A stretch of 64,000 nucleotides of DNA, from the NCBI RefSeq assembly GCF_011694815.1, contig NZ_CP050177.1, forward strand, positions 310,001-374,000, written 5' to 3'. Positions 3,837 through 60,981 of this stretch are shown one piece after another. This DNA is from Streptomyces liangshanensis (GTDB lineage: Bacteria > Actinomycetota > Actinomycetes > Streptomycetales > Streptomycetaceae). Below the pieces are notes generated by a model. It saw nothing but the letters and a program-made list of their open reading frames with translations. It was not told the origin of the DNA and did not search any database. Position 1 is the stretch's first letter; each line of letters begins with the position of its first letter. The position numbers were made by a program, and so were the translations under genes.

Positions 3837-6800
3837 TCACCCCGTCCCCGTCCGGACGGCGGCCGGGACCGCCGGGTCCGCCGTCGCCTCGACGACCGTC
3901 CGGGCCGTGCGGGTCACGCCGTTGACCGTCACCGCGAGCGTCACCGTCCCGGGCCGCAGCGCGGTGAGCGTGCCCGTGGCCGGGTCGAAGAACGCCACGT
4001 GCCGGTCCCGTACCCCGCGCCGCCCGTCCCCGATCAGCACGCCGGGCGAGCCGGTCCAGTCCGCGCTGAGCGGGAAGGCCACCGGCACCCGCCTGCCGCC
4101 CTGGGTGACCTCCGCCGTCACGTGCGCCCGGTGTCCCGGGGCCAGCGCCGCCGGGGCGTCCAGGGCCAGCGCGTCGGTGTGCGCGCGGGTCCGGACCGAG
4201 ATCCAGTCGGGGCCGCCCGTCCAGGGCGCCCGCCGGGCGGCGGTCCGGTCGCCCGGGGAGACCCGGTCCACGCCGATCAGGGACCACCCGGTGAAGCCGC
4301 CCTCGGCGGGCGGGGCGGCGGGCGCCTTACCCGCGTTGCCGTTGACGAGATACGGCACCCCGTCCACCCGCGAGGCGTCGAAGACCCCGACGTGGCCGCC
4401 GATCAGCGCGGCGCCCTTGCCGGTCGTACGGCGGAAGTCGGCGAGCCACCCTTCGAGGAGCGCGGCCTCCTTGCGGTCGCCGAGCTGGCTCGCCTTCTGG
4501 ACGGTCGGGTCGCGGGGCGGTACGTGCTCGATCACCACGACCGAGCCCACGCGGTCGTCGCGCGCCGCCGCGTCCAACTGCGCGCGTGCCGCCACGATCT
4601 GGGCGAGGCCGCCGCCGCGCAGCGACAGGCTGGACGTGTCGAGGGTGAGGAACCGGGTCCCCCGGTGGTCGAACACCCGCTGGGCGGACCCGAATTGGGC
4701 GGTGAAGTGCTCGATGCTCCCGCCCATCACCTCGTGGTTGCCCGGCACGTAGTACCAGGGCAGCGTGTCCCCCAGCTCCTCGGTCAGCACCCGGCGCGCG
4801 AACGCCAGGTCCTCGGGCGCCCCCTCGTCCACCAGGTCCCCGTTGATCACGAGGAAGTCGGGCCGGGCCGCCTTGATCTCGCGCAGGGTGCGGCGGGCCT
4901 GTGCCACGAGCGCGCTGTCGGGGTCGCGGGCGACGAACTGGGCGTCCGACATCACCGCGAACCGCCAGTCCCGGCCTTCCGTACGGGCGGCGGTGGCGAT
5001 CAACGGGTCGGCCCGGCGCGGCTGTTCGGGCAGGTCCACGGTGGGCGGCAGCCGTACCGTCAGGTCGTCCAGCACGACCTCCCCGGTGTACTGCTTCGTC
5101 GCCGCGGTCTCGGCGAGGTAGAAGCGGTACACGCTCAGCGGGGCCGCGGCGCCCTCGGGCACGGCGAAGGTCACCTGCCGCCAGCCGGTCCAGGTGACGT
5201 AGGGGCCGCGCAGCAACTGGTCGGAGCCCGCCGCGTCCTTGAGGTGCAGCGTGGGCCAGGCGCCCCGGCCGTCCCCCTTGATCCAGAGCGCGAAGGACTG
5301 CGGGCGGCCGGGGACCTGGACCGGCGCGGGCGGCAGCGCGTAGGCGGCGCGGGTCGCCGTCGACCGCGTGAAGTCGTAGCCGAGACGCAGGGCGGTGCCG
5401 GTACGGCCGTCCGGCACCGCGCCGACCGAGCCGTCCGCCCGCGCCTGGGCGAAGGTCCAGGACGCGGCGTCGTCGAAGCCGGTGACCGGCCGCTCCTCCA
5501 GTCCGACGGTGACGGCGAGCGCGGTGGTGACCCCGCCGGCGGTGACCGTGATCCGGCCGGCCCCCGCGCCCGTCAGGGAGCGGACGGTGAAGTTCCCGGC
5601 GCCGTCGTCGGTGACGGCGAACAGCGAGCGGTCGAAGTCCAGGGTGACGTCACGGGGTTCGACCGGGGCACTGGTGCCGTGGGCGTCGAACCCGACGATC
5701 CCGAAGGTGCCGGAGGCCGCCGCGTCCGCGAGTCCGACCCGCCGGGTCGTGGGGCTGATCCGGTCGAGCCGGTCGAGGACGGTCAGCTCCGTACCGCCGC
5801 CGGCCCGGCCGCGCTCGGCCCTCACCTCGGTCGTGCCGCTCGCGCGGGCGGTGAACAGGCCGTGCGCGTCGACCCGGCCGACGGCGGAGCGTACGGCCCG
5901 CCAGTGCGGGGTGCCGGCGGCCGGCCCGTACGTCTCGTCGTGACCGGCGGCGGTCAGTTGCCGGGTCAGGCCGGGGAAGACGCGCTCGGGGTGGCCGCCC
6001 CTGACGGGGTCGGCGGTCGGCGCGCCGCCCGCGGGGGTACGGGTTCCGACCCAGAAGCCGTCGAGCCGCCCGCTACCCTCCGGGGCGGTGAGGGCGAGGC
6101 CGTTGGGGACGGCGCGCTCGCTGCCGTCGGAGGGGCTGTTCTCCACGCGCAGGCCGTCCTGACCGGGGACGCGGGCGAGCAGCGTCGAGGAGCCGCCGCC
6201 GTCGAGGTTGAGCGCGCTGTACGAACCGGCGCGGCGCATCATCTCGCCGAGCCGGGTGAGCGTGACCCCGCCGCTGTCGGCCTGGCGGCCGTCGACGGTG
6301 AGGATCTGCATCACGGACCCGTCGCGCGAGAAGCCGACGGCGGTACGCGGGGCGGCGGAGTTGTTGCCCTCGCCGTCGTGGTTCTGCGCGACCCCGCCGA
6401 CGACGAGCTGTTCCCGGCCGCCGACCGCGGTACGGGGCACCGGCCCGCCGTCGTCGGTGCGCGGGCGGTACTCGACCGTCACCGGGTCGCCCGGGCGCAG
6501 CGCCCGGAGCGCCTCGGCGCCCGCTTCCCGGCCGACCAGGACGGTGGTGCCGGGGGCGACGGGCCCGGCGCCGGGGCGGTCCGCCACGGAGACGACCCGG
6601 CCGTCGCGGACGACGGCCTCCGCGACGGGCGCCGCCCGGTCGACGGTCAGGGCGCGGTCGGCGCCGCCCCAGCCGGGTGTGTAGAGGCCGAGGGCGCCGG
6701 GCGGCACGTTCGCGGCGTTGTAGGCGGCCAGCGGGCGCGTTCCCGAGGGCAGGGTCACGGTCCCGTCGAAGTAGAGGCGGAGGATCCGGCCGGCGTTCCC

Positions 6801-52660: not shown

Positions 52661-53491
52661 CTACCGCGCGCCGAGCCGTTCGTGGGGGATCTTCTCGCCT
52701 GCCTCGACCGCGACCGGCAGGCGGTTCTCCGCCGGGGGCAGCGGGCACGTGGCCAGGTCGGTGTACGCGCAGGGCAGGTTCGTCGCCCGGTTGAAGTCGA
52801 GGCGCACCCGGCCCTCGGCGTCGGGGGCCCCGACGGCCAGGGTCCGGTTCGCCGCGTAGGTCGTGACACCGGACGTGGCGTCGGTGAAGAGCACCAACAG
52901 GCTGCCGGGGGCGCTGCCGTTGAAGGCGGTCAGCCGGTGCGTCGCGCCGTCCACCTCGAACTCGACCTGTCCCGGCGCGTCGTACACGTGCTGGAGCCCT
53001 TCCACCGCCGCCCCCACCGTCACCGCGCGGGGAGTCCCGTACGGCAGGTAGCGCCCGGTACGGACCCAGCGCGGGTCGGGTTCGTACGCCGGGGCGGGCA
53101 CGTGGGCGGCGAGCAGCGCGCTGTCGGGGTGGCGGGGGCGCACGATGTGGTGGCCGCCGCGCTTGGCGACCTCGATCACCGCGTCGCCCGCCCCCGCGTA
53201 CACGCTGGCGCGCTCGGCGAGGATCCCGAAGCGGTACGTGCCGTGGACGGCCACGCCGTCGACGGTCAGTTCCTCGCCCTCGTCCAGCCGGACCTGCACG
53301 CCGTCCGCCGTGGCGGACCAGGCGCCGGGGGCGTCGGGGAACCGGGCCGGCTCGGCGTCGAGCCAGCGCAGGCTCGTGACGGCGAGGAAGCCGTGCGGGT
53401 CCGCGAGGCGCCGCTCGTGGTCGTCGCGCCACCGGCGCCACTCCTCGGCGAAGCCCGCCCGGTCGGCCTGGTAGTGGTCCTGGACCGTCAC
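52661..53491 (-). CDS. DUF1684 family protein, last gene of the LLM operon
   Basis: 276 residues of DUF1684, a family of unknown function. Recognisable blocks: HERRLADPHGFLAVTSLRWL, ARFPDAPGAWSATADGVQVR, TAFNGSAPGSLLVLFTDATS and the highly conserved VRLDFNRATNLPCAYTDLAT. The last, with Arg and Tyr-Thr/Asp residues, is the family's signature. GTG at 53491 overlaps the flavin-reductase stop by 4 nt, so it is translated together with it; its presence links the protein to flavin-dependent desulfurisation here. No signal peptide. Confidence 0.88.
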   Translation of the reverse strand: MTVQDHYQADRAGFAEEWRRWRDDHERRLADPHGFLAVTSLRWLDAEPARFPDAPGAWSATADGVQVRLDEGEELTVDGVAVHGTYRFGILAERASVYAGAGDAVIEVAKRGGHHIVRPRHPDSALLAAHVPAPAYEPDPRWVRTGRYLPYGTPRAVTVGAAVEGLQHVYDAPGQVEFEVDGATHRLTAFNGSAPGSLLVLFTDATSGVTTYAANRTLAVGAPDAEGRVRLDFNRATNLPCAYTDLATCPLPPAENRLPVAVEAGEKIPHERLGAR

Positions 53492-54027
53492 AGCGATTCC
53501 CTCACGTTCTCCTCTAGGCGCCGGAATCCCCCGGCGTGGAAGACCAGCGGGGGCACCCGGTGGTCGGCGTCCAGCTCGTGGATCCGGAGCAGGACGATGT
53601 CGTGGTCACCGGCTTCGACGTGCCGCTCCACGGTGCAGTCGAACCACGCGCTCGCGTCGTCGACCAGCACCGCCCCGTCGGGCGTGGCACGCCAGTCGAG
53701 GCCGGCGAACCGGTCGCCGTCGCGGGCGGCGAGCCGTCGGCAGGCCCGTTCCTGGTGGGCGCCGAGCACGGAGACCCCGAGCCGCGCCCGGTCACGCAGC
53801 ACCGGCCAGGTGGTGGAGCTGTGGGCGACGCACACCGAGATCAGCGGCGGGTCGAGGGACACGGACGTGAACGAGCTGGCGGCGAGGCCCACCGGCCGGC
53901 CGTCCACGAGCGCCGCGACGGCCGTGACGCCGGTGGGGAAGGTCCCGAAGACCTTCCGCAGGTCGGCCGGGCGCAGGCTGGGGCGCTCCGGGCGCTGTTC
54001 GAGGCAGGGTGTACGGCTGATGCTCAT
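53488..54027 (-). CDS. Flavin reductase supplying reduced flavin to the LLM enzymes
   Basis: 179-residue flavin reductase-like FMN-binding split barrel (HpaC/NtaB class). Motifs: RKVFGTFPTGVTAVAALVDG, LAASSFTSVSLDPPLISVCV (flavin phosphate loop), RLGVSVLGAHQERACRRLA and the C-terminal LVFHAGGFRRL. Such reductases reduce free FMN or FAD with NAD(P)H and pass it to two-component monooxygenases. The ATG overlaps the preceding LLM gene (ATGA) and its stop overlaps the DUF1684 start. It is the only reductase in the operon, so it presumably serves all four LLM oxygenases. Confidence 0.92.
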   Translation of the reverse strand: MSISRTPCLEQRPERPSLRPADLRKVFGTFPTGVTAVAALVDGRPVGLAASSFTSVSLDPPLISVCVAHSSTTWPVLRDRARLGVSVLGAHQERACRRLAARDGDRFAGLDWRATPDGAVLVDDASAWFDCTVERHVEAGDHDIVLLRIHELDADHRVPPLVFHAGGFRRLEENVRESL

Positions 54028-55160
54028 CGTCGGCCCCATTCGCCGGCCAGCAGCTCGTAGCTGCGGACCCGGTCCGCGTGGTCGTGGGTGAGGGTGGTGA
54101 CGATCAACTCGTCGGCCCCGGTGGCGTCGCGCAGGATCTCCAGCTGGTCGGCGACCTGCCGCGGCGATCCCACGAACTGGGTTTCGAGCCGGTCGGCGAC
54201 CAGGGCCCTGTCCGCGTCGGACCACACATGGGCCCGGGCCTCGTCGGGTGTCGGGAACGGGATGGCGCCCTCCCCGCTGCGGATGCTCCGCACCCACAGG
54301 CCGTAGCCCGTCGCGCGTTCACGCGCGGTCGCCTCGTCCTCGGCGACGACGACGTCGGCGGAGACGCTGACGTAGGGCCGGTCCAGTTCTGCGGAGGGCT
54401 TGAACGCGGCGCGGTAGCCCTCGGTCGCGTCCAGCACGCTGGACGGGCTGACGTGGTAATTCGCCGCGAACCGCAGGCCGTTGGCGCCCGCGGCCTGCGC
54501 GCTGACGCCCGCGCTGGAGCCGAGGATCCAGACCTGGAGATCGGCGCCCTCGCCGGGCACGACGTGCGCCTCGACGCCGCCGTCCGTGGTGTAGGTGCCG
54601 CCGAGCAGGGCGAGGATGTCGGCTATCTGCTCGTCGTACGGCTGGGATTCGGCGCCCGGCTGCTGGAGCAGCCTCCGGTGCAGGGCGAAGAGCGGGGAGC
54701 GCAGGAGGTGTTCGAAGGAGAACGGGGCGGGGATCCGCAGCCCGCCGGGAGTGCGGCCGTCGACGACGGGGGTCGCGCCGGCCGGCGGGACGTCCTTGCC
54801 GGGGAGGGCGCCTCTGCCGCCGGAGCGGCCGAGGCCGAGGTCGAAGCGCCCCGGGTGGACGGCGTCGAGCAGTCCGAACTCCTCGACGGCGGACAGGGCG
54901 GTGCGGTGCCCGAGCTGGACGGCGCCCGACCCGAGCCGGATGGTGGAGGTCGCGGCGGCGGTGAGGGCGAGGAGGACGGCCGGGGAGGTGCCCGCGACCC
55001 CGGGGTTGAGGTGGTGCTCGGCGAACCAGTAGCGGGCGTAGCCGAGGCGTTCGGCGTGCCGGGCGAGGTCGACGCTGTTGCGCAGCGCCTGGGCGGCGGT
55101 GGACCCCGAGGAGATCGGGACGAGGTCCAGGACCGCCAGGGGCGTGCGGGGGGAGGCCAT
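54024..55160 (-). CDS. LLM-class flavin-dependent monooxygenase
   Basis: 378-residue TIM-barrel luciferase-like monooxygenase of the group close to MsnO3/Nem-type hydroxylases. Motifs: LGYARYWFAEHHLNPGVAGT, TSTIRLGSGAVQLGHRTALS, GLLDAVHPGRFDLGLGRSGG and LQVWILGSSAGVSAQAAGAN. Several Gly-Ser phosphate-binding loops are recognisable. It needs FMNH2 from the neighbouring reductase. Start ATG 55160, 14 nt behind the upstream LLM gene; stop overlaps the reductase start. Substrate unknown, but the operon's leader points to organosulfur. Confidence 0.9.
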   Translation of the reverse strand: MASPRTPLAVLDLVPISSGSTAAQALRNSVDLARHAERLGYARYWFAEHHLNPGVAGTSPAVLLALTAAATSTIRLGSGAVQLGHRTALSAVEEFGLLDAVHPGRFDLGLGRSGGRGALPGKDVPPAGATPVVDGRTPGGLRIPAPFSFEHLLRSPLFALHRRLLQQPGAESQPYDEQIADILALLGGTYTTDGGVEAHVVPGEGADLQVWILGSSAGVSAQAAGANGLRFAANYHVSPSSVLDATEGYRAAFKPSAELDRPYVSVSADVVVAEDEATARERATGYGLWVRSIRSGEGAIPFPTPDEARAHVWSDADRALVADRLETQFVGSPRQVADQLEILRDATGADELIVTTLTHDHADRVRSYELLAGEWGRR

Positions 55161-55174
55161 GATGATCGCTCCTT

Positions 55175-56326
55175 TCAGCGCGGGGCGGGTACGGGCGCGG
55201 CGGTGTCGTGCGTGCCGGTGGCGGACGGGTCCGTGGGCGCCGGGCCCTCGCCGGCCGCGTTGTCGTCGGCGGGCGCGACCGGTCCCCAGGTCCAGGGCGG
55301 GTCGGGGAGGTCACGGCGCAGGGTGGGGGCGACCTCGGCCTGGAACAGTTCCAGGCTCGCCCGGTGCTGGGCCGTGGTGAGGCCGGACGCGTCGGCCTGG
55401 AGGTGCAGCACGCTGTGGCCGAACCGCTCGTGGTAGCGGTACACCTTCTCGATGATCTGCTGGGGGCTGCCGACGAGGGCGGAGCTGCGGGCGACGAAGT
55501 CCTCCAGGGTGGGGAAGACCGGTTCAAGTCCGAGCCGCTTCTGGAACGCCAACTGCCCCTCGAAGACGGGCCGGTAGGCCGCCAGGGCCTCCTGCGAGGT
55601 GCGGGCCGCGTAGAACCCGGCCGAGCCGGCGCCGACGGTGGCGAGCGCCGGGTCGTGGCCGTAGTGCTCCCACCGCTCGCGGTAGTGGCGGACCAGTTCG
55701 GCGTACGGCTCGATCGGGTTGGTCACGTTGGCGGAGAACAGCGGGTCGCCGTAGCGGGCGGCGAGGTCCACCGATTCCCGGCTGGTCGCGCTGCCGTGCC
55801 AGACGCGGACGGGGTGCTGGTAGGGCCGCGGCCAGACCTCGGCGTCCTTCAACGCGCCGCGGAACACGGGCGAGGCGGTGACCTTGTCGTCGCGCCAGAT
55901 CCGCCGGAACAGTTCGTACGACTCGGCGTTGCGCTCCCACTGGTCCTCGGGGGTGACGTGGTACAGCTCGCGCTGGGCGGCCCCGTTGCCCTTGCCGATG
56001 ATCAGTTCGAGGCGGCCGTTCGACAGGTGGTCGAGCGTCGCGTAGTCCTCGTACGCCCGGACGGGGTCGAGCAGGCTCAGGGTGGTGACCGCCGTGAACA
56101 GCCGGATCCGCCGGGTGAGCGCGGCGAGGTGGCTCAGGACGACGGGGGGCGACGAGGAGATGAAGGGGCGCTCGTGGCGCTCCCCCACGCCGAAGCCGTC
56201 GAAGCCCAGTTCCTCGGCGAGCAGGGCGTTGTCGATCACCTCCCGGAAGCGTTCGTGGGTCGACTTCCTGACCCCGGTGACCGGGTCGGGCGCGTGCACG
56301 ATCAGGGTGATGGCGAGGAACTTCAT
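55175..56326 (-). CDS. LLM-class flavin-dependent monooxygenase
   Basis: 383 residues. Motifs: EELGFDGFGVGERHERPFIS, RRIRLFTAVTTLSLLDPVRA, YEDYATLDHLSNGRLELIIG, VWHGSATSRESVDLAARYGD (FMN phosphate site) and SALVGSPQQIIEKVYRYHER. The last 45 residues are a Pro/Ala/Thr-rich tail not needed for the fold. Start overlaps the stop of the upstream NtaA-like gene (ATGA). It belongs to the group annotated in sulfur operons as LLM oxidoreductase, related to the SsuD-like alkanesulfonate enzymes. Confidence 0.9.
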   Translation of the reverse strand: MKFLAITLIVHAPDPVTGVRKSTHERFREVIDNALLAEELGFDGFGVGERHERPFISSSPPVVLSHLAALTRRIRLFTAVTTLSLLDPVRAYEDYATLDHLSNGRLELIIGKGNGAAQRELYHVTPEDQWERNAESYELFRRIWRDDKVTASPVFRGALKDAEVWPRPYQHPVRVWHGSATSRESVDLAARYGDPLFSANVTNPIEPYAELVRHYRERWEHYGHDPALATVGAGSAGFYAARTSQEALAAYRPVFEGQLAFQKRLGLEPVFPTLEDFVARSSALVGSPQQIIEKVYRYHERFGHSVLHLQADASGLTTAQHRASLELFQAEVAPTLRRDLPDPPWTWGPVAPADDNAAGEGPAPTDPSATGTHDTAAPVPAPR

Positions 56327-57717
56327 GACGCGGCCTTCCTGTCGGCGGCTCCGGCCCGGTCGTCCCGTACCGCACGGGCCGCGCCGAGCCCCAGGTGCTC
56401 GCGCAGGGTGTCGCCTTCGTACTCGGTCCGGAAGACGCCCTTCTCCTGGAGCAGGGGTACGACGGTGTCGGCGAAGTCGTCCAGGCCGCCGGGGGTCAGG
56501 TGCGGGGTGAGGATGAATCCGTCGCTCGCGTCGGACTGGACGAAGTGGTCGAGCGCGTCGGCGACGGTGGCCGGGGTGCCGATGAAGGACTGCCGTCCGG
56601 TGACGGCGATGATCAGCTCCCGGATCGAGAGGTGCTTCTCCTCGGCCAGGGCGCGCCAGCGGGCGGCGGTGGCGGTCGGGTCGCGGTGCATCCGTACGGA
56701 GGCCCGGCCGCGGGCGACGGTGTTCTCGCCGACGAGCGGGTCGACGTCGGGCAGCGGACCGTCCGGGTCGTACGCGCTCAGGTCGCGGTTCCAGAGCTGT
56801 TCGAGCAGCTTGATCGCGGTGGGGCCGCTGACCTGCTGGTGGCGGATGACGTCCGCCTTCTCCCGGGCGTCGGCGTCGGTGTCGCCGAGCACGAAGGTGA
56901 CGCCGGGCAGGATCTTCAGCTCGTCGGGGGCGCGGCCGTACCGGGCGAGGCGCCGCTTGACGTCGGCGTAGAACGCCTGGCCGTCCTCCAGGGTGCCGTG
57001 GCGGGTGAAGATGGCGTCCGCGCCCGAGGCCGCGAACTCCCTGCCCTCCTCGGAGTCACCCGCCTGGAAGATGACGGGGCGGCCCTGGGGGCTGCGGGGC
57101 ACGTTGAAGTGGCCGCTGATGTCGAACTGGTCGACGTGGTGGTCGAAGCGGCCGGGCGCGGGATCGGTGAGGAAGACCCCGGTGTCCTGGTCGGCGGTGA
57201 TCTCGTCGCCGCGCCAGGAGTCGAACAGCTCCCACGTGGCGGCGAGGAACTGCCGGGCGCGCAGGTAGCGGTCCTCCTGGGCCAGGAAGCCGCCGCGCCG
57301 GAAGTTCTGTCCGGTGAACTCGTCCCAGGAGGTGACCACGTTCCAGGCGGCCCGGCCCGCGGAGAGGTGGTCGAGCGTGGCGAACTGCCGGGCCACTTCG
57401 TACGGTTCGTTGAAGGTGGAGTTGATCGTCCCGGCGAGTCCGAGCTTGTCGGTGACGGCGGCCAGGGCGGTCAGGACGGTGAAGGTGTCGGGGCGGCCGA
57501 CGACGTCGAGGTCGTAGATCTCCCCGTTCTGCTCGCGCAGCCGCAGCCCCTCGGCGAGGAACAGGAAGTCGAACTTGGCGCGCTCCGCCGTCCTGGCGAG
57601 GTGCACGAAGGAGCTGAAGTCGATCTGGCTGCCGGCGGCGGGGTCGCTCCACACCGTGCTGTTGTTCACGCCGGGGAAGTGGGCGGCGAGGTGGATCTGC
57701 TTGACGGGCTTGCTCAT
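56323..57717 (-). CDS. NtaA/DszA-type FMN-dependent monooxygenase
   Basis: 464 residues of the NtaA/SnaA/DszA family, the long LLM branch that includes dibenzothiophene-sulfone monooxygenase and nitrilotriacetate monooxygenase. Motifs: QIHLAAHFPGVNNSTVWSDP, KFDFLFLAEGLRLREQNGEI, TFNEPYEVARQFATLDHLSA, GRAAWNVVTSWDEFTGQNF, RSPQGRPVIFQAGDSEEGRE and the C-terminal DGFILTPHLTPGGLDDFADT. The size fits DszA-like enzymes (about 450). Likely oxidises an organosulfur compound using FMNH2 from the operon reductase. Start ATG at 57717; end overlaps the next LLM gene. Confidence 0.92.
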   Translation of the reverse strand: MSKPVKQIHLAAHFPGVNNSTVWSDPAAGSQIDFSSFVHLARTAERAKFDFLFLAEGLRLREQNGEIYDLDVVGRPDTFTVLTALAAVTDKLGLAGTINSTFNEPYEVARQFATLDHLSAGRAAWNVVTSWDEFTGQNFRRGGFLAQEDRYLRARQFLAATWELFDSWRGDEITADQDTGVFLTDPAPGRFDHHVDQFDISGHFNVPRSPQGRPVIFQAGDSEEGREFAASGADAIFTRHGTLEDGQAFYADVKRRLARYGRAPDELKILPGVTFVLGDTDADAREKADVIRHQQVSGPTAIKLLEQLWNRDLSAYDPDGPLPDVDPLVGENTVARGRASVRMHRDPTATAARWRALAEEKHLSIRELIIAVTGRQSFIGTPATVADALDHFVQSDASDGFILTPHLTPGGLDDFADTVVPLLQEKGVFRTEYEGDTLREHLGLGAARAVRDDRAGAADRKAAS

Positions 57718-57778: not shown

Positions 57779-58984
57779 TCAGAGCGCGGCGTACCGGTTC
57801 GCGGGCCGGGGCAGGCCGAGCAGGCCGCGCAGGGTGGCCGCCTCGTAGGCGGTACGGAACGCTCCGCGCCGCTGGAGTTCCGGCACCAGGCCCCGGGTGA
57901 TCCGCTCCAGGTCGTGCGGCAGGACGGCGGGCCGCAGGCGGAAGCCGGTCAGCCCGGCCTCCTGGCCTTCGAGGAGCAGGTCGGCCAGCTCGGCGGGCGT
58001 ACCGGCGAAGACCCGGGCGTCGCTGGTGTACGGGGCGCCCGCGCGCTCCTCCAGGCGCGCCCTGCGGTCGGCGGCGGCGCCGGGTTCGTCGTCGAGAAGG
58101 ACGACCAGGTCGCCGAAGACGTGGACCGTCTCGTCGGCGCGGCCCGCGGTGGCCTGCGCCGCCCGGATCCGGGCCAGGATCGCCCGGGTGTCGGCGGTGT
58201 CCTGCGGGGTGACGAAGCCGACGTCCGCGGAGGCCGCGACCAGGCGGAACGGTTCTTCACGGTGGGCGAGGGCGGTGACGACCGGCTGTCCCTGCGGCGG
58301 GCGCGGGGTGATGGAGGGGCCCTTGACGCTGAACCGCTCGCCCGTGAAGTCGATGTAGTGGAGCTTGTCGCGGTCGATGAACCGGCCGGTGGCGGCGTCG
58401 CGGATCTCGGCGTCGTCCTCCCAGCTGTCCCAGAGCCGGCGCAGCACCTCGACGTAGTCGCCCGCCTCGTCGAACAGCTCCTTGAGCGCGGCCAGGCCCG
58501 CGGGCGAGTCCAGCTCGTCGGGACGGAACCGGATCGCGGGCCTGCGGCCGAAGTGCGGGGCCTCGTCGGCGCGTCCGGACACCTTGACCTGGACGCCGGC
58601 CCGTCCGGTGCTGACGAAGTCCAGGGTGGCGACGGCCTTCGAGACGTGGAACGGCTCGGTGTGGGTGACGACGGCGGTGGGGATCAGCCCGATGTGCCGG
58701 GTCAGGGGCGCGACCCGGGCGGCGACCAGCAGGGCGTCGAGCCGGCCCCGTACCTGATCGGTACGGCCGTCGGGACCGGCGAAGGACGAGGACTGGAGGC
58801 TCAGGGAGTCCTCGATGGTCACGAAGTCCAGCAGGCCCCGCTCGGCCTCGGTCACCAGGTCGGTCCAGTACCGCGCGGTGAACAGTTCGCGGGGCCGGGC
58901 GCCCGGCTCGCGCCAGGCGGCGGGATGCCAGCCCGCCGCGTCGAGGGCGACGGCGAGATGGAGGGGTGAGGGTGCTGAAGGCAT
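57779..58984 (-). CDS. LLM-class monooxygenase, first gene of the operon
   Basis: 401 residues, NtaA-like. Motifs: LHLAVALDAAGWHPAAWREP, GLLDFVTIEDSLSLQSSSFA, RHIGLIPTAVVTHTEPFHVS, KAVATLDFVSTGRAGVQVKV, PPQGQPVVTALAHREEPFRL and the ending PHDLERITRGLVPELQRRGA. ATG at 58984 has GGGAAGCG upstream; a GTG at 59029 would extend it by 15 residues and is less likely. It is the first structural gene after the leader peptide and two hairpins at 59038-59117, so its expression should respond to that attenuator. Confidence 0.88.
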   Translation of the reverse strand: MPSAPSPLHLAVALDAAGWHPAAWREPGARPRELFTARYWTDLVTEAERGLLDFVTIEDSLSLQSSSFAGPDGRTDQVRGRLDALLVAARVAPLTRHIGLIPTAVVTHTEPFHVSKAVATLDFVSTGRAGVQVKVSGRADEAPHFGRRPAIRFRPDELDSPAGLAALKELFDEAGDYVEVLRRLWDSWEDDAEIRDAATGRFIDRDKLHYIDFTGERFSVKGPSITPRPPQGQPVVTALAHREEPFRLVAASADVGFVTPQDTADTRAILARIRAAQATAGRADETVHVFGDLVVLLDDEPGAAADRRARLEERAGAPYTSDARVFAGTPAELADLLLEGQEAGLTGFRLRPAVLPHDLERITRGLVPELQRRGAFRTAYEAATLRGLLGLPRPANRYAAL

Positions 58985-59037
58985 GGCGGTATCGCTTCCC
59001 GCTCGGAAATCTCGTGGATTCGAGGTCACGTGGACGC

Positions 59038-59117
59038 GGAACTCCCCTGGCCGGGAGAGCTCCTGGACATGCCGAGTGCCTTCCGCGCCGGGTCCGTTCC
59101 CGGGCGGAAGTGTCGGC
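59038..59117 (-). promoter_or_regulatory. Two stem-loops between leader peptide and LLM operon
   Basis: The larger hairpin (59071-59117) has outer arms GCCGA/TCGGC, a middle CTTCCGC/GCGGAAG and an inner CCGGG/CCCGG stem. The second (59038-59063) pairs CTCCC with GGGAG. Both lie in the 187-nt leader between the small peptide and the first LLM gene, where alternative structures could form depending on ribosome position. This is a candidate attenuator; no T-tract follows, as usual in Streptomyces. Confidence 0.5.
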
Positions 59118-59171
59118 GGACGTGCGTCGGAGGGCGCTGTACGTCGGGGCCGTGCGGCGGAGAAGGTGCCG

Positions 59172-59261
59172 CTACGGGGTGTGCCGCGGCGCGGCGTTCA
59201 CGTGACCCGGACACAGGGCGCCGGCGACACGCTGGAGATCGATGTGGCGCCGGGAGAACAT
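59172..59261 (-). CDS. Putative cysteine-attenuation leader peptide
   Basis: 29 residues: MFSRRHIDLQRVAGALC then PGHVNAAPRHTP. The Arg-Arg-His-Ile-Asp-Leu...Ala-Gly-Ala-Leu-Cys pattern resembles the short leader peptides that precede sulfur-assimilation operons in Streptomyces and other actinobacteria, which end near a Cys residue and sense cysteinyl-tRNA. The Cys codon is TGT (59213-59211), less common than TGC in this genome. It lies 187 nt before the LLM operon on the same strand, in the correct order for attenuation. No clear Shine-Dalgarno is visible upstream, so the start at 59261 is tentative. The known family pattern is from memory, not a search. Confidence 0.7.
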   Translation of the reverse strand: MFSRRHIDLQRVAGALCPGHVNAAPRHTP

Positions 59262-59769
59262 GCCGACGGCGCGGGGGTGGCTCGTGACGGCGAAGGCCGT
59301 ACGCGTGCCGGAGCGTCCTCGCACTGCCTTCACCTCCGCCTCGACCGGTCGTGCCGGTCCGAGCTCTCGCGCTTGCGCTGCCGTCATTGGCTCCGCCGGG
59401 TCGTCACCTGGAGCACCCCGCCGCGTCAGGAGGGTTGCCGGTCAGCAAACCCAGGGCTTGTCGCTGACTCTCATAACCTGCGTGAACGGTAACTCCGCAC
59501 CGGCGTCCGGCACAATCCCCACTCGACGCGCCCGCGTGCCGGGCGACTTGTAACGGGAAGATCATCGGGACGCTGCGCCGGATTGCCGAATCGTGACGGC
59601 GTACGGACAGAACGTAACGCCCCATGTCGGGGTCATGTCATCTCCCGGAAACCGTTGTCCCGCCGGACCGGGCCGGTGCATCGTCACTGGGCGGCGTACG
59701 AACACCCGTACCCCACACCCCACTTGAGGCGCGCACACCAGCTCGCGCCACTGACGCGAAGGACCCCCC
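59262..59769. other. Intergenic region before subtilisin gene
   Basis: 508 bp with no gene I can support. It separates the LLM leader (minus) from the secreted protease (plus) and must hold both promoters. A stretch at 59456-59500 (around CTCATAACCTGCGTGAACGG) is A+T-richer than its surroundings and may be a promoter. AAGGA just before 59770 is the ribosome site of the protease gene. Short open frames here have poor codon bias. Confidence 0.5.
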
Positions 59770-60981
59770 ATGTCAGCAGTGCGTACGAACAAGCGGCGCT
59801 TCGCCACCGCGATCGCCACCGCGGCGACCGTGGTCGCGATCATCGGAGCGGGCACGGCCCTGCCGGCCCAGGCCGCCCCGGCCGAAGGCAGAGTCCTGCA
59901 CGCCGGCGCCGCCGACGCCGTCAGCGGCAGCTACATCGTCACGCTCAAGAAGACGGCCGGTTTCTCGGCGCGGGCCACCCAGGGCAAGCAGCTCATCGCC
60001 GAGTACGGCGGCAAGGTGAAGCGGACGTACTCCTCCGCGCTCAACGGGTACGCCGCCACGCTCAGCGGCACCGAGGCGGCGCGGCTGGCCGCGGACCCCG
60101 CCGTCGAGTCGGTCGAGCAGGACCAGAAGGTCTACGCGACGGCCACGCAGACCAACGCCCCCTGGGGCCTGGACCGCATCGACCAGGCGAACCTCCCGCT
60201 GAACGGCACGTACACCTACCCGGATTCCGCGGGCGCCAACACGACCGTCTACGTCCTGGACACGGGCGTGCGCATCACCCACCAGCAGATCGCGGGCCGC
60301 GCCTCCTACGGATACGACTTCATCGACAACGACGCCACCGCGCAGGACGGTTACGGCCACGGCACGCACGTCGCCACCACCGTCGCGGGCTCCACCTACG
60401 GCGTGGCCAAGAAGGCGAAGATCGTCGCGGTCCGGGTCCTCGGCAACGACGGTTCCGGCACCACGGCCGGCGTCATCGCGGGCGTGGACTGGATCACCGC
60501 CAACCACGTGGCGTCCTCCGTCGCGAACGCCTCGCTCGGCGGCGGCGTCAGCACCGCCCTCGACAACGCGGTGAAGAACTCGATCGCCTCGGGCGTGACG
60601 TGGGCCGTCGCGGCGGGCAACGCCAACGTGCCGGCCACCAACTCCTCCCCCGCCCGGGTGCCCGCCGCCCTCACGGTCGGCGCCACCACCAGGACGGACG
60701 CGAGGGCCTCGTACTCCAACTACGGCTCGGCCGTGGACATCTTCGCCCCCGGCTCCGCGATCACGGCGGGCTGGAACTCCTCCGACACCGCCACCTACAC
60801 CGGTGACGGCACCTCGTTCGCCGCCCCGCACGTCGCGGGCGCGGCCGCGATCTACCTGACCAACCACCCGGGCGCCTCGCCGGCGACCGTGGCCGCCGCG
60901 CTGGTGAACGGCGCGACGTCCAACGTCCTGACCGGCATAGGCACGGGCTCGCCGAACAAGCTCCTCCGGCTCGTCCCGTAA
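59770..60981 (+). CDS. Secreted subtilisin-like serine protease (S8)
   Basis: 403-residue extracellular endopeptidase of the proteinase K/thermitase type. Signal peptide RFATAIATAATVVAIIGAG ending near AQAAP, an I9 propeptide ([48 protein letters not shown]), then the mature enzyme from about residue 128 (NAPWGLDRIDQANLP). Catalytic residues: Asp in VYVLDTGVR, His in GYGHGTHVATTV and Ser in GTSFAAPHVAGAAA. The mature part has no Cys. ATG at 59770 has AAGGA upstream. Monocistronic with a strong terminator at 61040-61072. It probably supplies amino acids from extracellular protein. Confidence 0.93.
   Translation: MSAVRTNKRRFATAIATAATVVAIIGAGTALPAQAAPAEGRVLHAGAADAVSGSYIVTLKKTAGFSARATQGKQLIAEYGGKVKRTYSSALNGYAATLSGTEAARLAADPAVESVEQDQKVYATATQTNAPWGLDRIDQANLPLNGTYTYPDSAGANTTVYVLDTGVRITHQQIAGRASYGYDFIDNDATAQDGYGHGTHVATTVAGSTYGVAKKAKIVAVRVLGNDGSGTTAGVIAGVDWITANHVASSVANASLGGGVSTALDNAVKNSIASGVTWAVAAGNANVPATNSSPARVPAALTVGATTRTDARASYSNYGSAVDIFAPGSAITAGWNSSDTATYTGDGTSFAAPHVAGAAAIYLTNHPGASPATVAAALVNGATSNVLTGIGTGSPNKLLRLVP

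Follow-up and report, generated by a model that had tools for sequence, protein, structure and literature searches.

The flavin-dependent monooxygenase operon examined here lies in a window of 64,000 nucleotides from Streptomyces liangshanensis, and sequence comparison indicates that in front of it a SAM-IV riboswitch and a putative cysteine leader peptide form a tandem. This arrangement recurs elsewhere and describes the region better than a leader responding to cysteine only. Each half of this arrangement, the riboswitch and the leader family, is of a known kind, and the combination is apparently undescribed; a literature search limited to open-licence papers returned no description of SAM-IV and a cysteine leader as one unit. 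The original prediction for this region was correct in the type of peptide and in the candidate signal that it named; the riboswitch escaped it, it placed the start at an internal ATG, and the hairpins on which it depended do not appear to be conserved. The reading that we favour, with somewhat better than even confidence, is a composite leader RNA in which SAM-IV gates the translation of a cysteine-sensing leader, such that the operon would be on at low levels of both SAM and cysteine. The features of the region are collected in Table 1.

Table 1. Features of the leader region and the monooxygenase operon, in the direction of transcription (window coordinates)
Feature	Position	Strand	Basis
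Probable promoter TTGTGC-N18-TACCGT	59486..59515	-	Hexamers and spacing shared with relatives
SAM-IV riboswitch aptamer (RF00634), full length	59364..59478	-	85.2 bits, gathering score 38; E 8.5e-14 / 1.2e-15
SD GGAGGTGA of leader ORF	59330..59337	-	Read directly; 8-nt match to anti-SD complement
Leader ORF from GTG, 50 codons plus TAG	59172..59324	-	SD; SD plus start conserved in relatives; NF042934 34.9 bits at 50-codon length
29-codon leader version (internal ATG 59261)	59172..59261	-	Frame read from sequence
NF042934 motif SRRHIDLQRVAGALC	59211..59255	-	Family model match
Cys codon TGT, proposed stalling site	59211..59213	-	TGT in 39/39 LLM1 leaders
5' arm GGTCACGTG of 9-bp long-range helix, just past Cys codon	59199..59207	-	Minimum-energy fold
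Spacer stem-loop TTCCGC...GCGGAA	59081..59109	-	Minimum-energy fold; spacer structure unconserved in relatives
3' arm CACGTGACC of 9-bp long-range helix, upstream of LLM1 SD	59024..59032	-	Minimum-energy fold
SD GGGAAG of LLM1	58995..59000	-	Read directly
LLM1, luciferase-like monooxygenase (NtaA/DmoA-like, under that model's cutoff)	57779..58984	-	Over Pfam cutoff only
LLM2, NtaA/DmoA family FMN-dependent monooxygenase	56323..57717	-	TIGR03860 418 bits, cutoff 279.7
LLM3, luciferase-like monooxygenase	55175..56326	-	PF00296; over Pfam cutoff only
LLM4, MsnO8 family LLM oxidoreductase	54024..55160	-	TIGR03558 306 bits, cutoff 166.95
Flavin reductase, listed ORF	53488..54297	-	PF01613
DUF1684 protein, likely last operon gene; true start probably later than listed ORF	52661..53491	-	PF07920

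The gene content expected behind the leader, four LLM-class monooxygenases and a flavin reductase, was borne out by a Pfam scan of the operon, which returned Bac_luciferase four times together with Flavin_Reduct. The flavin reductase domain begins at residue 118, so the true start of this gene is probably later than listed. Judging from the enzyme families and the regulation, the substrate of the operon is probably an organosulfur compound. The upstream region is common to the operon and a divergent gene for a subtilase-family (S8) protease (window 59770-60981, plus strand).

The 29-codon frame on which the original prediction was built is present exactly as claimed, running on the minus strand from ATG 59261 (MFSRRHIDLQRVAGALCPGHVNAAPRHTP) to a TAG ending at 59172, with a single Cys codon (TGT, 59213-59211) and a spacer of 187 nt from its stop to the LLM1 ATG at 58984. 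This peptide matches the NCBIfam model NF042934, 'putative leader peptide', at 35.8 bits against a cutoff of 27 (E = 4.2e-9), and is therefore not a chance frame; as had been proposed from its appearance, it belongs to a known family of putative-attenuator leaders and is conserved before orthologous operons. That the ORF is translated without any regulatory role, or matches the family by accident, is extremely unlikely in view of this match, the conservation of the peptide with synonymous change and the tandem controls at or near zero that are described below.

The leader frame remains open upstream of ATG 59261 and contains an in-frame GTG at 59324, 5 nt past a perfect SD (GGAGGTGA), so that the leader most likely starts at this GTG and would encode an SD-led peptide of 50 residues. 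The suggestion that the peptide has no ribosome site and may be leaderless is contradicted by this SD, and a leaderless start at ATG 59261 was rejected, as no TAnnnT box lies nearby and the perfect SD stands upstream in frame. There are 11 places in the S. liangshanensis genome over the NF042934 cutoff, and the window leader is thus one of a set. Among the eight of these 11 leaders that were read, SD-led starts are mixed with leaderless-looking ones, so that the mode of starting varies within the genome; one of them (L003) has TACGAT 6 nt ahead of its ATG and a leaderless-looking start.

An Rfam scan of the whole window produced a single match, the SAM-IV riboswitch on the operon strand, which covers model positions 1-116 and stands between the promoter and the leader SD, with the leader GTG 39 nt past the end of the aptamer. 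Since the leader also carries this riboswitch, S-adenosylmethionine is a better supported signal than cysteine. The cysteine signal originally proposed is retained in part: it fits the codon-level constraint on the Cys codon described below, and it does not stand as the only input. A strict consensus promoter scan lists none at the leader, and the promoter call therefore rests on comparison with three relatives, of which L178 has hexamers and spacing identical to those of the window, L094 has TTGTCG-N18-TACCGT and L095 has TTGTGC-N18-TACGGT. The promoter of the window ends 7 nt upstream of the aptamer. In L178, L094 and L095 it runs straight into the leader, and among these loci only the window has an aptamer between the -10 hexamer and the SD.

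The phylogeny of LLM1 groups the window with L178, its nearest relative in the tree (support 93/84), and with L092 (100/95), and places the aptamer-bearing L053, L175 and L176 in another clade. Because the tree splits aptamer-bearing loci between clades, the aptamer must have been gained or lost more than once. Neither L178 nor L094 has an aptamer. Ahead of the leader SD of L092, a segment that looks like the 5' half of SAM-IV can be recognized by eye, which suggests that this locus lost its aptamer by deletion. Aptamer and LLM1 leader occur together in the S. liangshanensis genome and in three others (G313, G267 and G070) among the best matches listed for 392 Streptomyces genomes. The distribution bears on the model originally put forward, control by the leader peptide only, in which SAM-IV would be a decaying passenger: the LLM1 leaders of L178 and L094 without an adjoining aptamer and the apparent 5' half that is all L092 keeps are what such a model would expect, but the aptamer of the window is full-length and scores 85 bits, and the leaderless translation that the model included is contradicted by the SD, and we consider it quite unlikely.

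Selection on the peptide was evaluated in 76 distinct LLM1 upstream regions. Conservation upstream of orthologous operons was confirmed, the leader being present in at least 39 of the 76 by a sequence pattern that misses real leaders (L111; L094 and L095 are not among its 76 rows). The Cys codon of the motif is TGT in all 39, compared with 18 of 208 Cys codons in nearby genes, and it is TGT in all eight leaders read in the S. liangshanensis genome, where 11 are over the cutoff. Across 34 distinct motif DNAs, third positions vary at the invariant R, I, D, L, R and V codons and the Cys codon is invariant. As the residues hold under synonymous change while the Cys codon is fixed, the pattern indicates that the leader peptide is translated and kept, and that UGU is kept beyond its residue. 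This codon-level constraint fits sensing of cysteinyl-tRNA, and a cysteine response of the leader would be expected by analogy with mycobacterial Cys leaders. An SD match of at least 5 nt precedes 32 of the 39 leaders. There are exceptions behind SAM-IV: seven L079-type leaders end in SSAY-stop and have no Cys, and L084, L086 and L092 have TGC at other positions. In the seven (L079, L083, L085, L087, L088, L090 and L091) the leader ends RRLHIDLLRVSSAY-stop (DLSRV in L090), the Cys is gone and a Tyr codon stands before the stop.

The same residues can be read differently, with the nascent RHIDLxRVxxALC itself stalling the ribosome and UGU setting only the position; the compound sensed might then be cysteine or a different sulfur compound, and it would not matter how many Cys codons the leader holds. 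Such an arrest peptide would account for the near invariance of Arg, His, Ile, Asp, Leu, Arg and Val, residues unrelated to cysteine beneath which synonymous variation occurs, and for the sufficiency of a single Cys codon in the window. It is nevertheless unlikely, since the fixation of UGU in 39 of 39 leaders is a sign of decoding or RNA pairing rather than of the residues alone, and since in Ornithinimicrobium cavernae a leader without the motif serves an LLM1 relative. At that locus (L166, 5604-5733) a leader with seven Cys codons begins 14 nt past a SAM-IV aptamer, and the LLM1 relative lies behind it. Another SAM-IV, in the opposite direction, lies at 5409-5522. Neighbouring SAM-IV aptamers that face opposite ways, each with an operon of its own behind it, were also observed at G040:C1:8784920-8785304 and, by eye, at L176.

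To determine how widely the tandem of aptamer and leader occurs, we surveyed SAM-IV loci in 150 Streptomyces genomes, 147 of which have RF00634 among the matches listed. From these, 36 genomes with at least two matches were picked, giving 86 matches, of which the 33 highest-scoring were taken as canonical and the 53 lower-scoring were fetched. By length and score, three of the 53 (L042, L060 and L065) were also classed as canonical, and the 49-locus test did not include the window and L053, as both are LLM1 loci. A leader profile trained on 27 LLM1 leaders that do not adjoin SAM-IV (threshold 10 bits, reach 400 nt downstream) detected a leader at 41 of the 49 non-canonical loci, against 0/49 in antisense, 0/49 upstream, 0/49 in shuffled sequence and 2 of 147 stretches further downstream. 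The profile found no leader at the other eight (L071, L072, L074, L075, L076, L077, L081 and L093). With the window and L053 included, the non-canonical tandem occurs at 43 of 51 loci. As many of the loci belong to a single genus, the counts do not represent independent events. The leader starts 17 to 39 nt past the aptamer in all 43 (29-39 nt in 39 of them), and no TAnnnT box precedes the start in any of the 43; the starts were chosen by best SD, and the presence of an SD at these loci is thus partly by construction. Genes tested behind tandem leaders include a TcyN-like (cystine) ABC transporter, family-5 solute-binding proteins, a DUF1684 protein and LLM monooxygenases. Outside Streptomyces the identical profile finds a leader at only 2 of 75 loci (L262 and L272), so that the tandem is chiefly a feature of this genus. 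A criterion based on Cys-rich ORFs proved useless outside Streptomyces, with 6 sense and 7 antisense cases among the 75.

The canonical SAM-IV riboswitches, which precede a class V aminotransferase/desulfurase, were represented by 31 loci, the S. liangshanensis locus and the 30 best from the 150-genome listing (L001 and L011-L040). All 31 carry a mini-ORF of the form GTG nnn nnn CGA ATG [CT]Gn TAG behind a GAGG-type SD, which usually encodes MSKRMR-stop, with VQ, NR, MQ, NQ and IQ as variants at codons 2-3. This mini-ORF, with its Met codon, may be another leader gated by a riboswitch. Term-seq in S. clavuligerus reportedly shows a premature transcript at a leader with SAM-IV (PMC8269248), and SAM-IV has been noted ahead of a cysteine desulfurase in S. 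lividans (PMC8079986). We tentatively suggest, as a generalization that is more doubtful than the model for the window, that Streptomyces SAM-IV may mainly permit a short sensor ORF, and not the gene itself, to be translated, by way of a Cys leader and a two-input AND gate at non-canonical loci and of the mini-ORF M-x-x-R-M-R-stop at canonical ones, in which case RHIDLxRVxxALC with its fixed UGU would act as a conditional arrest peptide and not as a simple codon counter.

A relay from riboswitch to gene through a short ORF has a published precedent in the Mycobacterium tuberculosis ppe2 system, in which a B12 riboswitch acts through the uPPE2 uORF on the gene (PMC11260477). The likeness is that an SD-led uORF comes immediately after the riboswitch and would be required by the downstream gene here as it is there; the differences are the ligand, a stop/start overlap there as opposed to 187 nt in the window, and the absence of amino-acid sensing from the published proposal. 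On this pattern SAM-IV might relay through translation of the leader ORF to the first gene while the Cys codon senses nothing, as the strength of the aptamer (85.2 bits), the published relay of comparable layout and the seven leaders that end in SSAY-stop with the Cys absent would allow. However, the ppe2 relay needs an overlapping stop and start, the fixation of UGU would be left unexplained, and LLM1 is also preceded by the same leader where the aptamer is absent, which together make control by the riboswitch on its own very unlikely.

Structural predictions were examined for the steps that would connect the leader with the operon. The two strong stem-loops originally placed between leader and operon do fold in the window, where the RNA from the Cys codon to LLM1 is more stable than its shuffles (z = -3.1 and -2.96 in two runs), but they do not appear to be conserved: the mean z over the 39 LLM1 loci with a leader is -0.69, compared with -0.19 in 39 control windows, and conserved hairpins were rejected as a shared feature. 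Covariation tests were negative. The region of the Cys codon and stop was considered as an anti-SD of the first gene and rejected, being complementary in many loci without cognate preference (cognate -14.56 versus -14.13 kcal/mol, mean rank 0.53). No intrinsic terminator was found in 58950-59800. A Rho-site signature was non-discriminating, the C-excess being 0.18 in 39 LLM1 spacers and 0.22 in 10 intergenic stretches taken from elsewhere in the fetched loci (references: coding 0.06, SAM-IV 5' flank 0.01).

At the leader start, the region from aptamer to start folds no better than shuffles in the window (z = +0.89). Of four window-type sequences, L053 and L175 show a clear consensus helix that would mask the leader SD, the window and L176 do not show one clearly, and a universal anti-SD helix after the aptamer was not found. 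Pairing covers more of the leader start region than of the gene start region, the mean unpaired probability being 0.25 (32 leaders) versus 0.45 (39 genes); the difference holds with and without an aptamer and does not prove switching. In the transporter group (L041-L062), predicted folds allow the leader start AUGUACGCAGC to pair with GCUGCGUACA further down the leader, and in L052 both sides of the pairing change (AUGGACGC with GCGUCC). This paired change hints, in the transporter group, at a start-masking hairpin that is absent from the predicted folds of several members.

In the composite leader that we favour, transcription would start near the 5' end of the aptamer, as the shared promoter implies. 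With SAM bound, the riboswitch would keep ribosomes off the leader start, and the untranslated leader would leave the operon off, via either Rho-type termination or masking of the LLM1 SD. With SAM low, the leader would be translated, and the outcome would then depend on charged tRNA-Cys: where this is plentiful the ribosome would run off and the operon would be off, and where it is scarce the ribosome would stall at UGU and the operon would open, as the leader family and its mycobacterial analogues suggest. An AND gate for sulfur starvation is the simplest joint model; the riboswitch appears to sit where ribosome entry to the leader can be gated and the leader bears the apparent marks of a cysteine sensor.

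Comparison with known systems places the two halves of this leader. The window peptide resembles other members of NF042934 (cis_reg_atten), a family named 'putative leader peptide', in scoring over the cutoff, in being encoded by a short ORF ahead of a metabolic operon and in a motif that ends in Cys, and differs in lying behind a riboswitch and being SD-led. The SAM-IV element agrees with RF00634 in having a full-length aptamer over the gathering score in the 5' leader of a probable sulfur operon, and differs in that the next start codon belongs to a leader peptide and not to the regulated gene. Cysteine-responsive leaders in mycobacteria are cited in PMC9094748, PMC4633059 and PMC13236596. 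With the poly-Cys leaderless attenuators of mycobacteria (Canestrari 2020), as described in papers that cite them, the window shares a short uORF ending in Cys before sulfur genes, but it has one Cys codon and no Cys run, and is SD-led without a TAnnnT box before its start; its matches to the Ms4527A and Ms5788A models are weak (20.7 and 16.2 bits, below the cutoff of 45). The leaders of actinobacterial cys operons, described in the available text of PMC1262725 as having Cys runs and no clear terminators, are alike in a Cys codon near the stop and the lack of an intrinsic terminator, and differ in their runs of Cys codons as opposed to one in the window; that text makes no mention of a riboswitch. 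From a classical transcription attenuator the window differs in that no intrinsic terminator follows the leader within the stretch scanned.

If this system works as proposed, a single leader RNA would tie together two nodes of sulfur metabolism with no need of a regulatory protein. The recurrence of the arrangement in Streptomyces supplies natural variants, with the aptamer present, absent or left as a probable remnant and with leaders that are Cys-rich or have lost the Cys, and whether riboswitch control and ribosome stalling are combined can be tested directly with these variants.
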